Part shown: positions 58,139 to 60,302 of the stretch, piece after piece
Numbering within the stretch: the first letter of the stretch is position 1
Layout of the letters: the number at the start of each line of letters is the position of its first letter
DNA from: Mesotoga prima MesG1.Ag.4.2
GTDB lineage: Bacteria; Thermotogota; Thermotogae; Petrotogales; Kosmotogaceae
DNA: 64,000 nt
Assembly (NCBI RefSeq): GCF_000147715.2
Contig: NC_017934.1
Location: 2,356,001 to 2,420,000 of the forward strand
Reading direction: 5' to 3'
Translations under genes and position numbers: made by a program
Notes under the pieces: model-generated
Told to the model about the DNA's origin: nothing
The model's database searches: none
Seen by the model: the letters and a program-made list of their open reading frames with translations, nothing else

Positions 58139-58807
58139 CTACTTGAGGAGGCCATAGGCATCGCCCACGTTTTGAATGAAAATGATTCCCTTACCAGGCT
58201 CATCGATTCTTAGCTTCTCTCTTATCTTGTTCACTATTGTCTGTGTCAACTCTTTATTGGAGACGATCATGACGATCTCCTTTTCAGGTTCGATCTCCAT
58301 TGCGAACAACGTGCTTCTTTCGTGAACGCCGGATCCTCTCGCGTTTATTACCGTTCCACCTTTCGAACCCATCTCGGTAGCGGTATCTATAACTTCCTCG
58401 GCCTTTCCCCTGTCAACTATTACTGTAATCAATTGATACATAATCTCTTTTTCACCTCTTCCTTCTTGGAGCGAATTGCATCCCAGTTCTTTTGATCCTT
58501 CTACTTCCTGAATGTCTACAGTGAAAGCGATTCCGTGATCCGGGCGATCAAGCATCATTTCTCTGTCAAGAGCTTCGAGCAAGCTCTTGGCATTCCTGTT
58601 GTTTGCAACTATCAATACTATTTCCTTTCGGATTTCGTACAGCGCGAAGAAGTTCAATAATCCACTTCTTACAGTGCCCCTCCCCAGCAGAATCGTGCCT
58701 CCGCTGATCCCGTTTTCCCTTGCAATTCGAAGCACTTCGCTTCCCTTTCCAAAGTTAACGACCGCATATATCAACTTATACGGACTGATATTCTTATTAC
58801 TAGCCAC
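58139..58807 (-). CDS. Protein with two tandem PII-like domains
   Basis: About 222 residues from GTG 58807 (GAGGTG nine bases upstream; a TTG four codons earlier is less likely). Two repeats of a PII/GlnB-like ferredoxin fold: KLIYAVVNFGKGSEVLRIAR...GGTILLGRG...EIVLIVANN in the first half and QLITVIVDRGKAEEVIDTA...GGTVINARG...EIVMIVSNK in the second, each ending in GIAFTV or GIIFIQN. No T-loop tyrosine of nitrogen-type PII is seen. It overlaps the end of the DUF1538 gene upstream, so it is probably its cytoplasmic regulator. Confidence 0.8.
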   Translation of the reverse strand: MASNKNISPYKLIYAVVNFGKGSEVLRIARENGISGGTILLGRGTVRSGLLNFFALYEIRKEIVLIVANNRNAKSLLEALDREMMLDRPDHGIAFTVDIQEVEGSKELGCNSLQEGRGEKEIMYQLITVIVDRGKAEEVIDTATEMGSKGGTVINARGSGVHERSTLFAMEIEPEKEIVMIVSNKELTQTIVNKIREKLRIDEPGKGIIFIQNVGDAYGLLK

Positions 58808-60290
58808 TTGACTCAACACCTCTTTTTCTTGTCTTGATCTTGTATATCAACCCCAGTATTTGAAGAGCGATAATGGGTGTCATTGCGACCATAGATATGA
58901 GACCGAAAGCGTCAATGAGCACGTTCGCGCCTTCAATTGCGCTCGCGGCACCCTGGGCGAAAGCAATTACAAACGTACCCGTCATAGGTCCAGAGGCAAC
59001 ACCTCCCGCATCGAAAGCAATTCCGACAAAGAGCTTAGGCGAAAAAAACGACAGTAGTATGGAGATGGCATAGCCGGGCAGAAGAAAATGCCAGAGTTGA
59101 ACCGCCGGTACAGCTATCCTAATCATTGAAAGAGCCACTGCCAGACTAACACCGGCCGATAGGGCGAGAAGAACTATTCTTCTCTTAACGGCACCACTGG
59201 TCACATCTTCAATTTGATGAGTCAGAACGTAAACCGAAGGCTCTGCAAGGATTGTGACAAGACCCAGAATCATACCAACTAGAACTAAGATTGACTTGTT
59301 TCCCATTGAGGCTATGCCGTATCCGATTTCTCTCCCGACATCCATGAAGCCCCCGTTGACACCTACGAGAAAAATCACCATACCTACAAAAGTGAACACA
59401 AGTCCGACAGTTATTTGTCTGAGCACTCTCTTTGAAAGTCTCAGTGAGCTAAACTGAAGCAGCAAGAAGGCCAGCAGTATCGGAAGCAGTGAAAGAAGAA
59501 CCTCACTGGCGATCCTTGGCATCAAATCGAAGAAGTAACCAAGAATCTCTGAAGATTCCGATGCGAAATAAACAGGGGCAGCTTCCATAGTGTTGTTAGT
59601 GGATACTATACCGACGAGAAGCACAGAGATAATTGCTCCGGCGGAGGCAATTCCCAGGAGTCCAAAACTATCATTTTCTGAAGATCTACTATCTCTCTTG
59701 AGAACTGATATCCCGGCTGCAAGTGTAAGAATGAATGGAACGGTCATCGCGCCTGTGGTAGCTCCGGAAGCGTCGAAAGAGATCGCAAGTAATTCTCTCG
59801 AAGAAAAGAGAGAAAGGATAAGTATTATACCGTAAGACACTGTCATAAGTTTCTTGAGGGCGACATTGAAGACGATTCTTATGAGTCCGAGTGAGAGAAA
59901 AACTGCAATGCCAATGGATGCAGTTATAACGACACTCCCGCTAGATAATATACCTGAAGAGACAAGCTCGACCTGAAGCGCGTGTATGTGCAGTGCGGGT
60001 TCAGCTATGGATATGAAGAATCCAAGCACAAGACCTGCAACAGCTACTATCCAGAGCTTATTAGTCTTTGCTATGAAGGTACCCATGAAGTTACCGATAG
60101 GGCTAATCCCTATACTGACTCCAAAAAGAAACGCAGACAGCCCGACAACAATCAAAAAGGAGCCAATCACAAATCTGAATATTAGAAACCAACTCAACGA
60201 GACAAACAGGAAATTGAGCACCAGAACCAGCACCGTAATGGGAAGAACGGCTAACAGCACTTCCTTGAGTTTTTCAAGAAGCAGGTTCAT
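58800..60290 (-). CDS. Fused DUF1538 membrane protein, possible cation/H+ antiporter
   Basis: About 496 residues from ATG 60290 (GGGTGA eight bases before it). Two homologous halves of six to seven membrane segments: the first has EPALHIHALQVE and FDASGATTGAMTVPFILTLA, the second EPSVYVLTHQIEDVTSG and FDAGGVASGPMTGTFVIAFA. DUF1538 proteins occur as pairs (UmpA/UmpB), for which Na+(Li+,K+)/H+ antiport has been reported; here both halves are one chain. The following gene encodes PII-like domains. Ion and direction are inferred, not shown. Confidence 0.82.
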   Translation of the reverse strand: MNLLLEKLKEVLLAVLPITVLVLVLNFLFVSLSWFLIFRFVIGSFLIVVGLSAFLFGVSIGISPIGNFMGTFIAKTNKLWIVAVAGLVLGFFISIAEPALHIHALQVELVSSGILSSGSVVITASIGIAVFLSLGLIRIVFNVALKKLMTVSYGIILILSLFSSRELLAISFDASGATTGAMTVPFILTLAAGISVLKRDSRSSENDSFGLLGIASAGAIISVLLVGIVSTNNTMEAAPVYFASESSEILGYFFDLMPRIASEVLLSLLPILLAFLLLQFSSLRLSKRVLRQITVGLVFTFVGMVIFLVGVNGGFMDVGREIGYGIASMGNKSILVLVGMILGLVTILAEPSVYVLTHQIEDVTSGAVKRRIVLLALSAGVSLAVALSMIRIAVPAVQLWHFLLPGYAISILLSFFSPKLFVGIAFDAGGVASGPMTGTFVIAFAQGAASAIEGANVLIDAFGLISMVAMTPIIALQILGLIYKIKTRKRGVESSG

Positions 60291-60302
60291 TGATATGCTC
60301 AC

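Follow-up and report, generated by a model that had tools for sequence, protein, structure and literature searches.

We found that DUF1538 transporter genes are almost always followed by PII-like domains: in 190 of 194 distinct DUF1538 loci with sufficient flanking DNA these lie immediately downstream on the same strand, with a median gap of 4.5 bases. The window, the whole 64,000-nucleotide stretch of Mesotoga prima MesG1.Ag.4.2 that was analyzed, carries one such pair (Table 1). Judged by this recurrence, the pair seems to be an ion transporter under regulation that is widespread. We think it reasonably probable that the two genes form a dedicated cassette, in which a DUF1538 cation/H+ antiporter would be docked and gated by a private, nucleotide-sensing PII-like switch; binding, gating, ligand and substrate are what we infer here. 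The authors of the initial sequence-only reading knew of no description of this pairing, and we found none in the openly accessible literature; subscription papers could hold an earlier mention.

The DUF1538 and PII-like genes in Mesotoga prima

The fused DUF1538 chain of 496 residues proposed from sequence alone was borne out. The ATG at 60290 is preceded by AAGGGTGA, with a ribosome-binding site better placed than for the GTG at 60302, and Pfam DUF1538 (PF07556) matched the protein in two stretches (E 1.9e-126, 419.8 bits against a cut-off of 22.6), placing it within the family. The description of its halves as UmpA/UmpB-like was correct as far as membership of the DUF1538 family goes but did not extend further: with the UmpA/UmpB equivalog models (NF041627/NF041628) each half reached 69-82 bits against cut-offs of 490/500, below membership, and the models did not tell A and B apart. 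Where A/B pairs are split into two genes, our tree groups the A half of the window protein with the first of these and the B half with the second.

Table 1. Features of the DUF1538/PII-like cassette (positions within the window)
Feature	Position	Strand	Details and basis
Fused DUF1538 membrane transporter gene	58800..60290	minus	496 aa from ATG 60290; ORF extends to GTG 60302 (58800-60302, 500 aa)
N-terminal DUF1538 half (A half)	59604..60239	minus	genome search, 2415604-2416239; tree clade D1of2, support 100/99
C-terminal DUF1538 half (B half)	58845..59480	minus	genome search, 2414845-2415480; tree clade D2of2, support 100/91
Overlap, transporter gene end / regulator gene start	58800..58819	minus	ORF coordinates; up to 20 bases
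Double PII-like regulator gene	58139..58819	minus	226 aa from GTG 58819; second possible GTG start 58807; ORF, Pfam, AlphaFold, Foldseek
First PII-like domain	58502..58780	minus	derived, fast-evolving; P-II alone 19.7 bits, E 0.0011, under Pfam cut-off; tree clade P1of2, support 98/93
Second PII-like domain	58154..58435	minus	residues 129-222; genome search 2414154-2414435, E 1.4e-12; column counts; tree

The AlphaFold model of the transporter was confident (mean pLDDT 87.6, pTM 0.87) and displayed one helix pattern twice. The Asp of an [FV]D motif was 100% conserved across all DUF1538 halves and single-domain proteins and the Glu of a Glu-Pro motif 88-100% conserved, and in the model both residues sit at or near helix breaks. 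Foldseek found no PDB fold match for this model, solved cation/proton antiporters included (best E 0.016, TM ≤0.23). Judging from the model, the family may have a membrane fold that is as yet unsolved, and a substrate could not be assigned from fold similarity since no PDB structure matched (E at least 0.016). Similarly, no known RNA or riboswitch that would name the substrate was found upstream of the window cassette or in 12 relatives, and a scan for promoters and terminators gave nothing above shuffled sequence.

The overlapping next gene had been read as encoding two tandem PII-like domains, and both were recovered, the second by Pfam and the first by the AlphaFold model together with a profile of the family. 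Pfam P-II (PF00543) matched the whole 226-residue protein (E 3.5e-17, 63 bits; cut-off 25), making it a member of the PII superfamily. Its AlphaFold model (mean pLDDT 79.7, pTM 0.78) consists of two successive beta-alpha-beta-beta-alpha-beta units and was matched by Foldseek to PII structures with a probability of 1.00. The first domain is backed by the family profile over about 190 loci, by column counts and by the model; the second has retained two motifs, G-G-T and PGxGI[AIV]F, and clusters with single PIIs. The overlap of the two genes is consistent with translational coupling.

Distribution and architectures of the gene pair

Loci were collected from the nearest relatives, from plasmid records, from 84,980 scanned species genomes and from samples of Spirochaetota, Synergistota, Bacillota and Thermotogota, with weakly scoring Bacillota genomes added to seek exceptions to the linkage. 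The loci taken per phylum were the best-scoring ones, and Proteobacteria were represented by two plasmid lineages only (Alphaproteobacteria). Removal of repeats left 203 distinct loci, among which the 194 with at least 200 bases downstream formed the testable set. Taking a conserved adjacent transporter and PII-fold gene as the mark of a transporter-dedicated PII pair, we found such a pair in 190 of these 194, far more than chance would give. The neighborhood survey suggested by the sequence-only reading thus found the linkage in five phyla, namely Thermotogota, Bacillota, Spirochaetota, Synergistota and, as Alphaproteobacteria, Proteobacteria, and in both directions where checked. The four remaining loci comprised a spurious match of 82 residues (L023), two broken frames (L121 and L242) and a contig edge (L151), where 276 bases were left downstream and a divergent PII-like start was visible.

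In the plasmid records, a 'P-II family nitrogen regulator' was annotated after DUF1538 in Peptoclostridium, Paraclostridium, Vescimonas, Methylocystis and Chelativorans. DUF1538 itself was found in 101/299 sampled genomes of Bacillota, 35/101 of Synergistota, 27/149 of Spirochaetota and 13/103 of Thermotogota. The reverse direction was followed in the 101 Synergistota genomes: all PII-subfamily matches with E < 1e-20 fell in the 35 genomes with DUF1538 and lay beside it, and five genomes with a PII match had no DUF1538, their matches being weak only (E 1e-7 to 3e-5). Among 10 genomes from the genus of the window, 5 had both the DUF1538 and the PII-like gene, and the other 5 had neither. A search for viral carriage returned 15 pattern matches in viral contigs, none of which was a true relative.

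The cassette occurs in several architectures. Fused transporters with two DUF1538 domains were mostly followed by a fused double PII (127 loci) and occasionally by two PII genes (8 loci). Split DUF1538 genes preceded a double PII (13 loci), two PII genes (6 loci) or one PII (13 loci), and one DUF1538 was paired with one PII in 8 loci; loci outside these six classes were cut or divergent. In Spirochaetota (L145-L155), the transporters were mostly 620-735 aa long with extra inserted stretches, and where they had this length the regulator next to them contained three tandem PII-like domains in about 364-392 aa. Neither of the two three-domain proteins that were run against Pfam was detected by it; proteins of this kind may be covalent pseudo-trimers.

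The trees of the two partners suggest how these forms arose. Transporter halves fell into three clean clades of first halves, second halves and single-domain proteins, and the single-PII loci branch early within the clades of first and of second halves. For PII, the tree joins the first domains of double proteins in one clade and places second domains together with single PIIs. From these topologies, the transporter probably duplicated first and PII later, with the extra PII domain then diverging fast. The matching of halves would therefore be a frequent outcome and not the founding design. The earlier proposal that one regulator molecule matches both transporter halves thus survived in part: the 2:2 form is common, but 2:1 loci exist, some Spirochaetota carry three PII-like domains and the transporter appears to have duplicated before PII. 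A strict rule of one PII domain per transporter half was ruled out by the 2:1 loci and the order of duplications. Distances of transporter halves and PII domains correlated with r 0.69-0.75, the highest permutation value being 0.14, and the clades of transporter and PII matched across phyla, indicating that the pair is co-inherited.

Residue conservation and proposed regulation

Residues of the PII-like family were numbered after E. coli GlnB. The T-loop is shorter than in classical PII: about six columns including 51-53 were gapped in 99-100% of one- and two-domain sequences, and the uridylylated tyrosine (Y51) was absent. The K90 position was mostly Ile (71-87%), R101 mostly Gly (73-90%), and neither R103 nor Q39 was conserved. 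An adenine-side motif was retained, mainly in the second PII-like domain; second domains and single PIIs had G27 in 88-98%, T29 in 92-98%, G35 in 88-100%, and Lys and Glu at the T-loop base in at least 88%. As a working signature of the family we use G-[AS]-x-G-[GA]-T ... K-E ... P-G-x-G-I-[AIV]-F. Overall, the protein departs from classical PII (GlnB/GlnK) in Y51 and the full T-loop, in the GDGK B-loop and C-terminal RxR by which classical PII holds the ATP phosphates, in Q39, a 2-oxoglutarate residue, and in genomic linkage, which is to DUF1538 instead of amtB. NCBIfam P-II models gave no significant match, and neither an Amt nor a further P-II gene was found in the genome of the window (2,974,229 + 1,724 bases searched).

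With K90, R101 and R103 gone, the PII-like protein is unlikely to bind ATP in the classical way, and naming its ligand amounts to a guess. Possible candidates are c-di-AMP, AMP, ADP, ATP and cAMP; c-di-AMP is among them since one diadenylate cyclase-type gene is present in the genome.

The cassette would then work as follows. The DUF1538 chain would transport ions, probably by monovalent cation/H+ antiport. Its two halves would be homologous, with about seven helices apiece, and both would carry the conserved Glu-Pro and Asp at helix breaks. The PII-like protein would be the sensor of a small molecule, an adenine nucleotide being the likeliest, and its pocket lacks the classical ATP-phosphate and 2-oxoglutarate residues. 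It would dock on the cytosolic face of the transporter and turn transport down or up, on the model of GlnK on AmtB and SbtB on SbtA (PMC10710835). We regard as evenly balanced the broader proposal that DUF1538 transporters have an unsolved fold and are controlled family-wide by PII-like proteins with short T-loops that form a branch of their own. In this proposal the cassette passed from two transporter genes and one PII to a fused transporter with a double PII, and some Spirochaetota went on to a PII of three domains, perhaps a covalent pseudo-trimer. Such cassettes would be a widespread, undescribed route from nucleotide state to ion flux.

The antiport assignment leans on UmpAB of Halomonas zhaodongensis, a two-component DUF1538 protein that confers Na+(Li+,K+)/H+ antiport on E. 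coli KNabc; it was active there without a described PII partner, PII is not mentioned in that paper, and this antiport is the only functional datum that we found for the DUF1538 family (PMC5484666). Since the halves of the window protein are only distantly related to UmpA and UmpB and score far under their cut-offs, antiport function may not carry over, and the cation substrate is only what we infer. It is conceivable, if rather unlikely, that the PII-like protein regulates DUF1538 but the cargo is something other than monovalent cations exchanged for protons, perhaps a different ion or a small metabolite; antiport by UmpAB would then be a side activity or specific to its branch. The low equivalog scores (69-82 bits against 490/500) favor such a view, as do the restriction of functional work to overexpression in antiporter-deficient E. 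coli (PMC5484666) and a predicted fold unlike that of any solved transporter, cation/proton antiporters included (best E 0.016, TM ≤0.23). On the other hand, every branch keeps, almost without variation, the acidic residues that a cation/proton exchanger should have, and UmpAB lies within the same Pfam family.

We consider it improbable that the PII-like protein serves the structure or assembly of a transporter complex, with a pocket that is a relic and no role as a ligand-controlled switch. The loss of the classical ligand residues, the degenerate and fast-evolving first domain and the nearly obligatory linkage would fit a scaffold, but the pocket side is strongly conserved in the second domain and in single PIIs, which a pure scaffold would not need, and no PII partner was described for UmpAB when it functioned in E. 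coli (PMC5484666). Classical nitrogen control, with a GlnB/GlnK reading glutamine and 2-oxoglutarate and standing beside the transporter by chance, is suggested by the automatic annotation of relatives as 'P-II family nitrogen regulator' but is very improbable on residues (Y51, the tyrosine that is uridylylated, is deleted along with T-loop residues, and conservation is lacking at Q39, K90, R101 and R103) and on genomic context, since a genome with no Amt and no other P-II gene makes it unlikely and NCBIfam P-II models gave no significant match. Genes with this annotation beside DUF1538 are thus probably not nitrogen regulators, and a dedicated, nucleotide-sensing switch remains the reading that we prefer.

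Relation to known PII-controlled systems

In a 2023 review of regulated transporters, PII control is listed for Amt, Nrt, Urt and SbtA alone (PMC10710835), so DUF1538 would add one to these few families. If each DUF1538 has a dedicated PII-like switch, the pair would be among the commoner PII-controlled transporters in anaerobes, gut Clostridia included, and what the PII reads and which ion moves would become directly testable questions. Two other neighborhoods were observed during the survey. At a locus from the same genus (L042, 319-1830 minus), a gene for a 117-aa PII-like protein (P-II 24.3 bits, just under the cut-off) stands directly before a PF00999 Na+/H+ exchanger (E 6e-31); going by these matches, this is a second, unrelated PII-like/cation antiporter pairing. 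At another (L038), a short PII-like protein, of DUF190 type by its look, adjoins a gene for a CrcB-type fluoride channel.

Like UmpAB, the window transporter has two DUF1538 halves that are homologous and comprise about seven helices apiece. It differs in that the halves are fused in one chain that is followed by a PII-like gene and score far below the equivalog cut-offs. No solved structure of a DUF1538/PII pair was found. The best PDB sequence match to the profile of the PII-like family was chain 9p1x_H (E 7.8e-5), which we take from the look of its sequence to be NifI1. NifI1/NifI2 are likewise PII-like proteins encoded in pairs; however, chain 9p1x_H keeps a YGDGRIF B-loop, and NifI controls nitrogenase and not a transporter.

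GlnK-AmtB shares with the window pair the conserved arrangement of a small PII-fold regulator adjoining a membrane transporter gene. In contrast, the window pair involves another transporter family and tandem PII domains in a genome without Amt, and its PII-like protein is devoid of the uridylylation tyrosine and of the ATP-phosphate and 2-oxoglutarate residues. SbtB, the partner of the cyanobacterial bicarbonate transporter SbtA, is similar in being a PII-like protein dedicated to a single transporter, and its pocket, like that of the window protein, is without the classical GDGK / RxR phosphate clamp. The differences lie again in the transporter family and the tandem domains, as well as in the C-terminal redox loop, which was not seen in the window protein, and in the phyla that carry the DUF1538/PII pair, a different and much wider set. 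In summary, the DUF1538/PII pair would resemble GlnK-AmtB and SbtB-SbtA in its mode of action, but it belongs to neither.
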